Part shown: positions 45,848 through 51,076 of the stretch, one piece after another
How the letters are laid out: the number at the start of each line of letters is the position of its first letter
Numbering within the stretch: the stretch's first letter is position 1
Source: a virus
Virus record (IMG/VR): IMGVR_UViG_3300035150_000010
Span: 1 to 52,791 of that record
Length of the DNA stretch: 52,791 bases
Strand: one strand, 5' to 3'
Position numbers and translations under genes: made by a program
Notes under the pieces: model-generated
Told to the model about the DNA's origin: nothing
Databases searched by the model: none
What the model saw: the letters and a program-made list of their open reading frames with translations, nothing else

Positions 45848-46216
45848 TCACCCGTTTTCCCAGCGCATTAGAACGCCTGATCTTTTGTCTGTCTTAAAAC
45901 CAAGTCGCTCAAGCCATTTCCTAGCCATTGGTTCTTCTTCATCAGGAACGGCATAGACAAAACGAAGCCCCATCTTTCTTGCCTCATCCATAATTTTTCT
46001 TGCCGTCTTGGCAATCGTCACCTTATATGGCCTGGCTTCGTCCGTAATATCAAAGAAAGCATACCATCTTCCATCCAATTCACGCGCAAGACCGAATAAA
46101 GCTATAGGTTTCCCATCTTTTTTTGCTACAAATGCCTTCATTGTTGGCTTCGGTGCGTCGTTGGAAAAAAATTCGACGTCTTCTTTAGTCGCTTTTTCTA
46201 TGGAATTAACGCTCAT
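45848..46216 (-). CDS. GNAT-like acetyltransferase in the tail locus
   Basis: A 122-residue protein, MSVNSIEKATKEDVEFFSND, with FGLARELDGRWYAFFDITDEA and a helix-strand end ARKMGLRFVYAVPDEEEPMARKWLERLGFKTDKR. It resembles the small GNAT proteins often found between gp14-like and tail genes in T7-like phages. The acetyl-CoA loop is not perfect. Its target, if any, is unknown. The start lies inside the next gene by 11 bases. Confidence 0.65.
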   Translation of the reverse strand: MSVNSIEKATKEDVEFFSNDAPKPTMKAFVAKKDGKPIALFGLARELDGRWYAFFDITDEARPYKVTIAKTARKIMDEARKMGLRFVYAVPDEEEPMARKWLERLGFKTDKRSGVLMRWENG

Positions 46217-49200
46217 TCGTGGTCACCCTTGGGAGAAGTGCCATAATTGTCGCTGGTCTTGGGGCTTTTGCTCTTACGTATATTCTTGAATCCTCGTCGT
46301 AATCTCCGTCAAATGCATGCGCGAACTTGTCGTATTCAGAGAAAATCTTGTCAGCATCGACAGTTGAACCATTATCAATGACTCTTGGCATTGGGTCTAG
46401 ATGACCTGTATCAGATCCCATAAATAATGCGTTGTTGTGTGTCTGGCTCAGAATAAGCGCAATTCTGTCAATGCGCTTGACCATGGTCATCGCTGTCGAA
46501 CCCTGCACGCCATAGGCAAGCTTTGTCGATTTATAGTCAGCCCTATATGGAAGCCCGCCAACGACATGCTTTACACCGCTATCGGTCATCGTCAGGTCGC
46601 CGCCAGTATCGAGTGATAACAGAACTTGGTCACCACCAGTGTCGTCAGGCGTAAGGTCTTTCCCGTAACTGTTTGATTGACCGGTATCATTCCCCCATGC
46701 CGCAATTGTCTGCCCGCCGATATGCTCGGCAAAGTCAGGGATTAAAGCGGTTGCCCCTGTATCCGTGTAACTGACAGCGCAATCCATCAGCCATGACAGT
46801 CCCGTGTCGCCTTGGCATTCAGATTCCATCGCCCACTTTTCCAAAAACCTCCGCGTTACTCCGTTGATTGTTCTTCTGACATGATAATAAACGTTGTCTT
46901 CCACATCACCCGGAAGCACCATGGCACGCTCGACGGCGCTATCTGATCCGGTATCGGTAACCCATTTAGACCATGCGAGAACCTCTTCTTGAGGCTCATA
47001 CGTCAAAATTGCCACGGTCCCGTCAGCCAAGACGCAATGAATCCTGGTATCCGGTTGCCTTTGTATGGCGATTGAGACGACGCCGGTCCTCAATACATCC
47101 GGAGTAAGAATCGTTAGTTCCGTTGACTCATATTCATTGAATGAACTTGCGCTCGTACCAATTCCGAACAAATAAAGCCGTTCTCCGCTGCGCTGTATGA
47201 AAAGCCCTCTATTGTCCATTTTCATCGCTCGCAAAGTCGCTGACCCTTGCGTCGAGAATGCATTGGCTGAGGCGTTTGTAGGGGTTAGCGTTTCATCGAT
47301 GGAAGATGACTTGATTGCGATTTCGCTTCCAGAAGTTCCGGCAACAAGACGCAACAGGGAAAGAAGATATTGAATCGCGTCAACCGGGCCAGAGCCAAGC
47401 GTTCTGGAAATTGGAGCCGATTCACCTTCAAGGGTAGCGTCGAAGTTTTCATAGTCATCAGAGACACTGCCCCATACATTCGCAGCCCCGGCATGCCACA
47501 AGCGGCCCTCGTGCAGGGCAACTGCTGTCGGGTATCCGCGACGTTCCGACCACGCCCCCTCGCGCCAAACTTCAGAGCCGCCCGTATCTGAAAACTGATC
47601 GATAACCTCTACGTTTACCTGTTGATTGGTGACATAGTCAGTAACTTTAGCGCGGCCGGTAACGCTACCATTCTTATAGGTGATGGAAACAATGGCCGCA
47701 CCACTTGTATAATTCGACATTCTCACACGATAAAAGACGGTGACATTGTCATCTTCATCGTCAATCGTCGTCGTAAACGTTCCAGTATCCGTCGCGTTTC
47801 CTGAGGTCACATGTGATTTTGTAACTTTCTTGTAACCAAAATCAGGGCTGTCAAATGATCTTTCTATTGTCAACTCGCCTGTATAGCTGCCACTGGCAGA
47901 AACGACCAAACGACGTTCGTTTTCCGCCGTCGGTGTTCCAGTGTCATTGATACCGGTTACCTCAATTACATTTGTTTCCGCATCTGTGTAACCAAGCGCA
48001 AACTCTCCAGATTGACCATTGTGCGTGATCTCAAACAGGGACCCGACCTGTGAACTGCGAAAGAATGGAATATCTGAATACAAAACGGTGTTACCGTATT
48101 TGCCGGCAATACTGAGTTTCGCGTTCGATGTACGTCCGGCAAGGAATGGACCGTTATCAGGTTCATACTTTACAACCGACCAGCTGCGCCCCGTCCCACG
48201 CCTCTCGATCTTGTATGGAGATACCCCAACGCAATCCGCGTAAACAATATCAGCCGATTGATCGTATCTTATGGAATCAAGATTAGAGGCGGCCCACGGC
48301 GTTTTAATCTCAACCGTTCCAGAATCACCAATAGAGAGAGATTCAACAATTCGGCTTACGTCATTCGCTGTTTGTAATGTAATATAAAACGTCCCGGATG
48401 GCACGAATGCCAGGTTATGATATCCTGTCCCAATGGATGTCTCGGATACATAATCATCATCACCATCCGTTGAGCCAACACGAATCGTTACAGGCCCACG
48501 ACCGACGTGAATATCTAGTGAGTGCTCAACCTCACTGTCTCCGGTATCAACTGTTACGGTCTTTTTCGCTCTTGCTGTTGACCCAATCGCCCCGGAATTC
48601 AGAACGAGTTTCTGGTTTACAGCATTTGTTGAAAGAAGTTCAATTTCAGCCAGTTCAACGGCTGCACCTGAACCATCACCAGCCGCGTTTCCGGTGTCAG
48701 TCGAAACCACCAAAAGACGCCAATGTCGCCGCGCCTCAACAGTCCCTGTATCAGATCCAGGAAGGGTATAAGTCCTTTGCTCGCTTACCCCCCAATCGAT
48801 TTCAGAGGTGCGCTCATCTTCAAGCGTCCACTTGCCCGTATCCGTGGCGTATGTTCCAGTGTCATAGTCCCCAGTGATAAGCCTCCACGCTCTTGGCGCA
48901 TTGTCCAGAAAGGTTGCTGCATTTGCGCTTCGGATTGTGTAGGAGCCAACGGCAACGTAGTTTTGTGTTTTCGCACCGGTATCAAGATCAACATTCAGCC
49001 AGCTTGGAGTTGCTGGTGTCGTCGGGCTTCCGGTATCTCTCCAGAAAGTTCCAAAATTTCCATCTGCGGCATTCCACGGAAGACCACCAAAAGCCCCGGC
49101 ATCTGTCGATGATGACGCTGTAATTTTAACGCGGTTGGTCGTCTCCGAAACCATCATTGGAATTATTGAACTTGTTGTCGTTGCCGCATTCCCGCCAATG

Positions 49201-49592
49201 GAGTCATCGTACCAACCAGTGTCGGAAATAGAGACAGCAGTGCCAACGGAAGGTCGTGCCATTGGGACCAGAAGGCCAGTCTGATTAGGAGTCTCCCATG
49301 TATTGCCGGTATCACTCGGAAGCCAGACGCGCATTTTCTGATTGGTCAATTCGAGCAGCGCTGTCTCTGTAGTAGACGCAACAAACTCGACCCATGCTGC
49401 TCCGGTATCATTTATGGAGTTGCCGACATACTTTGTGCCCGGACGCAAGATCATGGGACCCTGCGTCTTGGGCAGGAAGTTCGTCATGATTTCCGCAGAA
49501 AGACGCGTCCTGTCCAAATCTGTTCTGGCAAGGGTGGTCTTGGAGATGATCCCGCGATTAAAGCTAAGTAATGGAGCATATGTCGTTGCCAT
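46206..49592 (-). CDS. Tail tubular protein B-like (gp12 position), DTG-rich
   Basis: A 1128-residue protein in the position of T7 gp12, after the gp11-like gene. The start FNRGIISKTTLARTDLDR is the standard start of this family (..G..S......R.D), and GAWSERRGYPTAVALHEGRLWHAG, then the C-terminal KSTKLAYGVQGSTAM and RIYVRAKAPRPATIMALLP, are typical core segments. Homologues are nearly 600-900 residues. It contains twenty Asp-Thr-Gly triplets (expected fewer than one), mainly in Gly/Asp/Ser/Thr loops such as SLDTGGDLTM and TPDDTGGDQV, using many codon combinations (GATACAGGT, GACACGGGA, GATACCGGA and others). Confidence 0.85.
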   Translation of the reverse strand: MATTYAPLLSFNRGIISKTTLARTDLDRTRLSAEIMTNFLPKTQGPMILRPGTKYVGNSINDTGAAWVEFVASTTETALLELTNQKMRVWLPSDTGNTWETPNQTGLLVPMARPSVGTAVSISDTGWYDDSIGGNAATTTSSIIPMMVSETTNRVKITASSSTDAGAFGGLPWNAADGNFGTFWRDTGSPTTPATPSWLNVDLDTGAKTQNYVAVGSYTIRSANAATFLDNAPRAWRLITGDYDTGTYATDTGKWTLEDERTSEIDWGVSEQRTYTLPGSDTGTVEARRHWRLLVVSTDTGNAAGDGSGAAVELAEIELLSTNAVNQKLVLNSGAIGSTARAKKTVTVDTGDSEVEHSLDIHVGRGPVTIRVGSTDGDDDYVSETSIGTGYHNLAFVPSGTFYITLQTANDVSRIVESLSIGDSGTVEIKTPWAASNLDSIRYDQSADIVYADCVGVSPYKIERRGTGRSWSVVKYEPDNGPFLAGRTSNAKLSIAGKYGNTVLYSDIPFFRSSQVGSLFEITHNGQSGEFALGYTDAETNVIEVTGINDTGTPTAENERRLVVSASGSYTGELTIERSFDSPDFGYKKVTKSHVTSGNATDTGTFTTTIDDEDDNVTVFYRVRMSNYTSGAAIVSITYKNGSVTGRAKVTDYVTNQQVNVEVIDQFSDTGGSEVWREGAWSERRGYPTAVALHEGRLWHAGAANVWGSVSDDYENFDATLEGESAPISRTLGSGPVDAIQYLLSLLRLVAGTSGSEIAIKSSSIDETLTPTNASANAFSTQGSATLRAMKMDNRGLFIQRSGERLYLFGIGTSASSFNEYESTELTILTPDVLRTGVVSIAIQRQPDTRIHCVLADGTVAILTYEPQEEVLAWSKWVTDTGSDSAVERAMVLPGDVEDNVYYHVRRTINGVTRRFLEKWAMESECQGDTGLSWLMDCAVSYTDTGATALIPDFAEHIGGQTIAAWGNDTGQSNSYGKDLTPDDTGGDQVLLSLDTGGDLTMTDSGVKHVVGGLPYRADYKSTKLAYGVQGSTAMTMVKRIDRIALILSQTHNNALFMGSDTGHLDPMPRVIDNGSTVDADKIFSEYDKFAHAFDGDYDEDSRIYVRAKAPRPATIMALLPRVTTNER

Positions 49593-50747: not shown

Positions 50748-50797
50748 GTTGTTTCCTTACAATGAGAAGCGGGCGACCGAAGCCGCCCGCCTTGTTG

Positions 50798-51076
50798 TTA
50801 AAGTACGCCGCCAGTATCATTGGCGAGCGCGATGGTGCCGGTCGTTCCGCCGGTATCCTGAACAACGGTAAACTGGCCGCGATAGACCAGATCAGCGTTG
50901 CGGTCGATAACCGTGATGGAGTCCCCGACAGTGACGCCGTAGTTCTTGGCATCTTCGATAAAGCCGGAACCCTCGTAAGTCGCAAGGGTTTCACCGCCGG
51001 TATCATCATATTGCCAGCTTTTGGCACCAGCAATCGGCTGGCCGCAGAGTTGCAGTCCTTTGGAATCATAGCCCAT
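50798..51076 (-). CDS. Small DTG-containing protein after the capsid
   Basis: A 92-residue beta-rich protein, MGYDSKGLQLCGQPIAGAKS, with VGDSITVIDRNADLVYRGQF and ending NDTGGVL. Three DTG triplets, one at the C-terminus. Small proteins with a MGYDSKGL start directly after the capsid are found in related phages and may be decoration or head-stabilising proteins. Confidence 0.7.
   Translation of the reverse strand: MGYDSKGLQLCGQPIAGAKSWQYDDTGGETLATYEGSGFIEDAKNYGVTVGDSITVIDRNADLVYRGQFTVVQDTGGTTGTIALANDTGGVL

Follow-up and report, generated by a model that had tools for sequence, protein, structure and literature searches.

A dense Asp-Thr-Gly motif as a probable O-modification sequon in outer proteins of a clade of uncultured podovirus-like viruses

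Sequence comparison indicates that a high density of the tripeptide Asp-Thr-Gly (DTG) in outer tail and accessory proteins is a trait of one clade of uncultured podovirus-like bacterial viruses. We consider it probable, at odds of about two in three, that phage enzymes covalently O-modify outer virion proteins at D-(T, less often S)-G, which would serve as the acceptor sequon; the modification would most likely be O-glycosylation. At the sequence level, the enrichment is clade-wide, D and G are retained, the middle residue keeps its hydroxyl, sites turn over at a roughly constant number, and the motif is linked to a cassette of sugar-modification genes. An earlier note on this DNA had hinted at modification of the Thr, and that is the best-supported reading.

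The window, meaning the whole stretch of DNA analyzed, was the 52,791-nucleotide IMG/VR virus record IMGVR_UViG_3300035150_000010. Its DTG-rich proteins, and a small protein located among them, are as follows.

46206-49592, minus strand: gp12-like tail (nozzle) protein, 1128 aa, 20 DTG and 2 DSG (PHROG 376 tail protein, E 7.6e-126)
49599-50237, minus strand: gp11-like tail protein, 212 aa, 2 DTG (PHROG 394 tail, E 6e-33)
50798-51076, minus strand: small protein between major capsid and tail genes, 92 aa, 3 DTG (phrog_18004, unknown function)
13140-13523, minus strand: DTG-rich protein beside the terminase small subunit, 127 aa, 6 DTG (position, DTG count)
11598-12473, minus strand: DTG-rich protein, 291 aa, 10 DTG (alignment with homologs, counts)
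12595-13002, minus strand: small conserved protein between two DTG-rich proteins (orthologs in DTG-positive contigs; no family match)

The five DTG-rich proteins, 1,850 residues in total, contain 41 DTG versus 1.7 expected (Poisson P 1.6e-41). The earlier note had reported the same total, and a recount was identical protein by protein; the enrichment survives proper statistics. Shuffling gave means of 0.94, 0.08, 0.20, 0.09, and 0.45 for the five proteins. Chance expectation for the largest protein is far below the 20 observed, as proposed, but is nearer 0.9 than the approximately 0.4 first given. Among the remaining likely genes a single DTG occurs, within the endolysin-like ORF at 36161-37360, as previously noticed; the major capsid protein, the portal, the gp14-16-like internal proteins, and the 542-aa fibre/spike are free of it. 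Two of the proteins end in DTG-containing tails (DTGGVL and RDTGL). The description of all five as virion-locus proteins needs qualification: the counts are right, but the proteins at 11598-12473 and 13140-13523 adjoin the terminase small subunit, and their membership of the virion is only a presumption. The 92-aa protein is possibly a head decoration or joining protein.

The pressure acts on the protein rather than on a DNA repeat, as the earlier note had argued, because codon use is free across relatives that span 51-69% G+C and substitutions respect amino acid chemistry, with Thr replaced by Ser. In the window, Asp is encoded by GAT 28 times and GAC 13 times, Thr by ACC/ACT/ACG/ACA 17/12/7/5 times, and Gly by GGC/GGT/GGA/GGG 19/9/9/4 times. 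A DNA-level repeat or binding site is ruled out by the 17 different nonamers that encode the 41 DTG and by the protein-level substitution pattern. Collagen-like Gly-X-Y repeats were also rejected, as the window DTG are spaced, nonperiodic, and in varied contexts. The motif is not the DTG/DSG active site of aspartic proteases, which has one copy per catalytic half; the five proteins match no protease family and carry up to 20 copies per chain.

DTG density sharply divides the gp12-like relatives. Among those counted, all with at least 50% identity have 9 to 22 DTG each, and all with 44% identity or less have 0 to 2. Most of the DTG-poor homologs in IMG/VR are about 870-910 aa long, and full-length DTG-positive forms, with extra loops, are about 1,100-1,350 aa. 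Other proteins follow suit. Most DTG-positive gp11-like relatives have 3 DTG and DTG-negative ones have 0; homologs of the 92-aa protein carry 2 to 4; positional counterparts of the 127-aa protein (108-144 aa) have 4 or 5; and homologs of the 291-aa protein, with its conserved C-terminal SAPRDTGL, have 4 to 10. Fibre-like proteins of different architecture adjoin the cassette, one of 656 aa with 29 DTG and another of 680 aa with 32. The density is thus common to close relatives, making it a clade trait, but it is not an ordinary conserved feature because homologs outside the clade lack DTG and sites are gained and lost within it. Recurrence of the trait in dozens of separate contigs rules out artificial alteration of the sequence or an assembly artefact.

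The enrichment is specific to the tripeptide. In 42 proteins from ten DTG-positive contigs there are 354 DTG versus 16.1 expected and a mild excess of DSG (35 versus 12.3). NTG, ETG, DTA, DTS, DVG, and DGS are at or below expectation, and neither D-T followed by residues other than G (DTA, DTV, DTL, and DTI included) nor DGT is enriched. The remaining proteins of the DTG-positive phages have 17 DTG versus 36.8 expected (P 2e-4), with other orders of D, T, and G near 1, a shortfall not clearly distinct from that in DTG-negative phages (19 versus 22.9, a small sample).

Fourteen highly conserved DTG columns in an alignment of 24 gp12-like sequences revealed how the motif changes. These columns hold 280 DTG cells and 30 others, 16 of which are DSG. 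When the middle residue alone changed, it became Ser in 16 of 17 cases, versus 58 of 199 (29%) for the remaining conserved Thr columns (Fisher P 1.4e-7); changes confined to D or G numbered only three. The alignment has 42 DTG columns altogether, 12 of which carry DTG in just a single sequence, and some are occupied in other sequences by unrelated residues such as QKM, DAH, and SHV. Alignment with relatives also addressed whether DTG is inserted or substituted, and both occur: half of the 20 gp12 sites are in loops absent from DTG-negative homologs, and half arose by substitution.

These patterns bear on the possibility of a structural role for DTG, as a turn or an ion-binding motif (an Asx/ST-turn, a beta-bulge loop, or a Ca2+ site via Asp) that stabilizes beta-rich tail proteins. 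D-x-G turns are common in beta proteins, and the Thr/Ser hydroxyl could cap such a turn. Most DTG Thr are in predicted coil: in model blocks with a mean pLDDT of 50 or more, 13 of 15 DTG Thr were in coil versus 44 of 85 for all Thr, which hints at the loop placement previously proposed, although the gp12 model is poor (pLDDT 52.6). However, gp12 and gp11 homologs outside the clade manage without DTG, and the alternative turn formers NTG, DGS, and DGT are not enriched, some being depleted. DTG also occurs at C termini and in a repetitive fibre-like protein, and its columns turn over to unrelated residues. A structural role would also leave the cassette unexplained, and we regard it as unlikely.

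The strict three-residue core with free flanks seen at the window sites would also suit a short linear motif, multivalent like RGD-type motifs, for a noncovalent partner such as a lectin-like or decoration protein or a host receptor. An acceptor site fits better with the tolerance of T to S and almost nothing else, with the occurrence of DTG in proteins from different regions of the particle, and with the linkage to a glycan-type cassette. No conserved nonenzyme partner unique to DTG-positive contigs was apparent among the conserved genes of the window, where the protein at 12595-13002 has no assigned function. Binding of this kind is very unlikely in our judgment.

Interpretation of DTG as an O-modification sequon draws further on the cassette beside the terminase, which has the following genes.

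5750-6472, minus strand: P-loop kinase-like protein, cassette member (Pfam AAA_18, E 6.9e-6, below the curated cutoff)
6472-7086, minus strand: SAM-dependent methyltransferase, cassette member (Pfam PF13649, E 1.7e-14)
7097-7801, minus strand: glycosyltransferase with a DLDLDM (DxD) motif (PHROG 1962 glycosyltransferase)
7791-8534, plus strand: GFO/IDH/MocA-type (sugar) oxidoreductase on the opposite strand of the cassette region (Pfam PF22725, E 1.8e-6, just above cutoff)
8474-9514, minus strand: FAD-dependent oxidoreductase (DAO-like), cassette member (Pfam PF01266, E 5.6e-20)
9514-10245, minus strand: "GSHP" protein, 243 aa, predicted GT42/Maf/MptE-fold enzyme (AlphaFold2 pLDDT 81.6, structure alignment)

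The cassette glycosyltransferase was present in 11 of 11 DTG-positive contigs reaching the region, adjoining the terminase in all, and in 0 of 21 long DTG-negative contigs (nominal P 8e-9, a value that ignores kinship). All DTG-positive gp12 contigs form one clade; therefore, cassette and motif could have been inherited together without a causal link. The kinase-like protein is conserved adjoining the methyltransferase (MT) and glycosyltransferase (GT), the FAD-dependent oxidoreductase is found in most long DTG-positive contigs, and several relatives have an SDR in place of the GFO/IDH/MocA-type oxidoreductase. In the genomes of 85,000 prokaryote species there was no close relative of the glycosyltransferase (best about 35%, partial), and no prophage or host was identified. 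A PDB sequence profile search with the glycosyltransferase alignment gave no relevant match. Where relatives of the glycosyltransferase or of GSHP occur without DTG, no other tripeptide was convincingly enriched nearby. Among the matches listed and inspected for a three-DTG DNA pattern, a search for independent DTG-rich systems, most were collagen-like or repetitive proteins and none came with cassette homologs.

It is also conceivable that a host enzyme modifies the Thr, or that another group (phosphate, acyl, or methyl) is added, with the cassette acting on lipopolysaccharide or DNA as a mere neighbor. The cassette does contain a kinase-like protein and a methyltransferase, and the KIN-MT-GT trio occurs without GSHP in phages lacking DTG enrichment (G015 and G018), so reading of DTG cannot be due to the trio alone. 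However, the trio there adjoins an MptE-like protein (a weak Pfam match, same superfamily as GT42), which suggests that the fold partner beside the trio sets the target. GSHP, in turn, tracks DTG, being present in DTG-positive contigs and absent from DTG-negative contigs that carry the trio. This alternative seems quite unlikely.

The fold predicted for GSHP is that of GT42 sialyltransferases and of the flagellin O-glycosyltransferase Maf, and GSHP is the best candidate for a DTG-reading protein O-glycosyltransferase. The fold was anticipated from sequence look-alikes before the model was inspected. VIA-align scored the model at Z 10.4 to CstI/CstII (over 167 residues at 3.5 A to the Campylobacter jejuni sialyltransferase), 9.5 to Maf 5mu5, and 9.5 to the MptE-type HPPK 8sd5 of M. 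jannaschii. Thiamine pyrophosphokinase also scored Z 7-10 and unrelated rows dropped to about 5; the best Foldseek E was only 1.7e-3. GSHP had no significant sequence match in Pfam, PHROG, NCBIfam, or PDB, and none to a glycosyltransferase; one member of its alignment weakly matched PF01973 MptE-like (E 0.095). Remote GSHP relatives (about 32% identity) occur in phages without DTG enrichment.

In the mechanism that we propose, modification would take place in the cytoplasm of the infected cell with enzymes that the phage brings. GSHP would attach the first sugar at the Thr/Ser hydroxyl, and the DxD glycosyltransferase would lengthen the chain or supply a second sugar. The oxidoreductases, kinase-like protein, and methyltransferase would make or trim the sugar. 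The resulting glycan coat may shield the tail nozzle, fibres, and accessory proteins from proteases or tune them towards receptors.

The gp12-like protein is a T7-type tail tubular protein B (gp12) by profile, matching PHROG 376 over residues 2-1127; like T7-type podovirus gp11 and gp12, the window proteins belong to PHROG 394 and 376. The GenBank phage collection contains no close DNA relative, and its gp12 homologs, for example in Pelagibacter phages, are distant (31% identity or less). Phage-encoded glycosyltransferases are reportedly responsible for virion glycosylation in mycobacteriophages, and we know of no dense tripeptide sequon of the DTG kind described in the 2023 study of that system. 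In the present case, one tail protein holds 20 copies of a three-residue address, a GT42/Maf-type fold is predicted for the candidate enzyme, and the cassette includes a phage-encoded glycosyltransferase, all four orthologs of which match PHROG 1962 (best E 2.3e-11). Mycobacteriophage particles have been described as carrying glycans on structural proteins (Freeman et al. 2023, Cell Host Microbe, PMID 37329881; via PMC12691614, PMC10568470). The Maf-type cytoplasmic O-glycosyltransferases of bacteria modify surface-exposed Ser/Thr with no conserved sequon known (PMC11339370). GSHP resembles Maf (PDB 5mu5) and CstI/CstII in predicted fold, but the sequon here is strict and GSHP is a single small domain without a significant sequence match. 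The general protein O-glycosylation motif of Bacteroidota is D(S/T)(A/I/L/V/M/T) (PMC8550257). Both addresses take the three-residue form D-(S/T)-x, but here Gly takes the third position, and there is no enrichment of DTA, DTV, DTL, or DTI, so these sites do not follow the Bacteroidota motif. The Bacteroidota system modifies exported proteins, and phage parts are made in the cytoplasm. Virion glycosylation is thus already known, and the dense, strict DTG sequon appears to be a new form of it; no report of it in phages was found in the open-access literature searched.

We suggest tentatively, at somewhat less than even odds, that this lineage evolved its own cytoplasmic O-glycosylation code, in which a GT42/Maf-fold transferase reads a strict D-(T/S)-G that is packed into outer proteins, from gp11 and gp12 to fibre-like proteins bearing some 30 sites, and depleted in other proteins. 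If so, the code would amount to a portable system of bacterial O-glycosylation defined by a sequon, and a phage enzyme able to read an address of three letters would be useful both as a model and as a tool. It would also mean that the tail machine itself carries a sugar coat in some phages, and tripeptide enrichment tied to a cassette would offer a sequence-only route to other virion-modification codes.

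The five proteins singled out in an earlier note as rich in the tripeptide Asp-Thr-Gly (DTG) contain 20 (gp12-like, 46206-49592), 2 (gp11-like, 49599-50237), 3 (50798-51076), 6 (13140-13523) and 10 copies (11598-12473; all on the minus strand). Our recount returned the same figures, a total of 41 versus 1.7 expected from composition, and shuffles of the largest, gp12-like protein never gave more than 6. The free variation of the DTG codons was also confirmed, as was the absence of the tripeptide from the capsid, portal, internal, and fibre/spike proteins (0 counted).

No phage in the GenBank phage collection was close to the window at the DNA level. 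Among IMG/VR relatives, gp12-like proteins at least 50% identical had 9 to 22 DTG each, fragments included (10 from a first scan and 22 further loci from an alignment scan, some on contigs already reached by other routes). Relatives at or below 44% identity (loci L011, L013, and 47 more) had 0 to 2. DTG enrichment characterises one clade and falls off abruptly with gp12 identity. The gp11 proteins had 2 or 3 DTG in nearly all clade members and 0 in relatives lacking the enrichment (DTG-). Contig G012 was an exception, with 1 DTG in gp11 and a gp12 piece 47% identical. The G+C content of enriched (DTG+) contigs spans 51 to 69%, so the trait does not track base composition.

The 42 proteins with at least 2 DTG on ten DTG+ contigs contained 354 DTG versus 16.1 expected. 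Asp-Ser-Gly (DSG) was also in excess (35 versus 12.3), NTG, ETG, DTA, DTS, DVG, DGS, and DGT were at or below expectation, and the GDT excess was what G-D-T-G contexts would yield. Alignment of 24 DTG+ gp12 proteins gave 42 DTG columns. Of these, 14 form a core retained in most sequences, and numerous others occur in just one to a few. The core columns comprised 280 DTG cells and 30 others, 16 of them DSG. Where the middle residue alone had changed, 16 of 17 changes were to Ser; the corresponding share at the other conserved Thr columns was 29% (Fisher P = 1.4e-7). Just three changes affected solely D or G. The hydroxyl is thus constrained, and the site pattern is that of a Ser/Thr hydroxyl that would be used while its neighbour residues are read. 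Whether the sites were inserted or substituted, a check proposed earlier, has a mixed answer: half of the window's 20 gp12 sites lie in loops absent from DTG- homologs and half are substitutions in shared regions. The remaining proteins of DTG+ phages had fewer DTG than expected (17 versus 36.8, P = 2e-4; our Poisson statistics in general are rough and ignore kinship within what is one clade), with other orders of D, T, and G at 0.8 to 1.2 of expectation. This avoidance is suggestive only, because DTG- phages had 19 versus 22.9 expected.

The window, an IMG/VR virus record of 52,791 bases, is circularly joined, as assumed previously: its ends have 126 identical bases in common (23-148 and 52666-52791). 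The match does not continue into bases 1-22, and a small assembly error at this very end is likely. Gene content, called with simple ORF rules, is podovirus-type: terminase, portal, major capsid, gp11- and gp12-like tail proteins, and gp14-16-like internal proteins. Other features are as follows.

265-291 and 51090-51872, minus strand: major capsid gene, apparently in two pieces across the circular join
51915-52790, continuing over the join: LAGLIDADG-type homing endonuclease, encoded between the capsid pieces
21568-21641, plus strand: tRNA-Ser (GCT), single gene, mid-genome

The capsid gene looks split, with its start (MADTAFQIQ) at 291-265 and the rest (FEEGMSW...) from 51872, both on the minus strand; in relative G009 start and body share a single frame. 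An intron is likely. Rfam gave nothing above the gathering score for it, in a search where a full-length match across the join was impossible. Directly after gp12, a small GNAT-like protein (45848-46216) matches PHROG 308, "internal virion protein," and weakly Acetyltransf_1; in Pelagibacter phages the neighbour under the same gp12 match is annotated as an acetyltransferase.

The stretch separating the terminase large subunit gene (3670-5115) from the DTG-rich protein at 11598 holds a sugar-modification cassette (5750-10245). Its minus-strand genes encode, in order of position, a kinase-like P-loop protein, a methyltransferase, a glycosyltransferase with a DxD motif (PHROG 1962), an FAD oxidoreductase of the DAO type, and an unannotated 243-aa protein that we named GSHP for its motif (9514-10245). 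Between the glycosyltransferase and FAD oxidoreductase genes, the opposite strand encodes a GFO/IDH/MocA-type oxidoreductase. The closest relative has the identical order, and other long DTG+ contigs have most members, several with an SDR. The cassette is linked to DTG enrichment: its glycosyltransferase occurred in 11 of 11 DTG+ contigs reaching far enough upstream of gp12 (the window, G001, G002, G003, G009, G010, G014, G016, G017, G023, and G046) and in 0 of the 21 long contigs whose gp12 relative is DTG-. As the DTG+ phages belong to a single clade, these counts do not represent independent events. In a search outward from the glycosyltransferase, DTG-rich proteins were seen next to relatives at roughly 40% identity and above and next to essentially none of about 100 more distant relatives, one distant genomic locus having a 521-aa protein with 3 DTG. 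Two phages of another type (G015 and G018) have the kinase-methyltransferase-glycosyltransferase trio near an MptE-like protein, without GSHP or DTG enrichment. Therefore, the trio is not what defines the motif, and GSHP is the cassette member that tracks DTG.

Sequence profile searches with GSHP gave no significant match. An MptE/GT42/Maf-type protein was expected before modelling, from its N-terminal motif and neighbours. The AlphaFold2 model (pLDDT 81.6) matched the Campylobacter jejuni sialyltransferases CstI/CstII (Z about 10), Magnetospirillum Maf (Z 9.5), and Methanocaldococcus jannaschii HPPK (Z 9.5), and more weakly mammalian sialyltransferases (Z 7 to 7.6); thiamine pyrophosphokinases also scored 7 to 10. 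The best Foldseek match was a sialyltransferase (E = 1.7e-3). GSHP is a candidate DTG reader, on a predicted fold that by itself is no proof of function. Small GSHP-like or MptE-like proteins are widespread in other phages (IMG/VR loci L174-L194, G015:5615-6235, and G018:603-1208), some adjoining methyltransferase, sulfotransferase, or glycosyltransferase genes.

The sequences show the motif enrichment, the hydroxyl constraint, and the linkage to the cassette; from these we infer a covalent modification of the virion, as well as its nature, the enzyme roles, and its benefit. In the cytoplasm, during assembly, GSHP would move a sugar onto the Thr (or Ser) of exposed D-T-G sites, and the DxD glycosyltransferase and tailoring enzymes would extend or modify it. 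The address is carried by tail proteins (gp11 and gp12, the latter with a poor predicted structure), fibre-like proteins (656 to 680 aa, 29 to 32 DTG), and small accessory proteins.

Glycosylated virions are known from mycobacteriophages (Freeman et al. 2023, as cited in PMC12691614 and PMC10568470). Flagellin Ser/Thr residues exposed at the surface are O-glycosylated by Maf enzymes, for which no sequon is known (PMC11339370). The Bacteroidota O-glycosylation motif, D(S/T)(A/I/L/V/M/T) (PMC8550257), differs from that of the window clade, in which the third residue is Gly, and none of the open-access papers that we searched described a DTG sequon. On this comparison, we propose that DTG enrichment may represent a new form of phage virion modification, virion glycosylation itself being already known.
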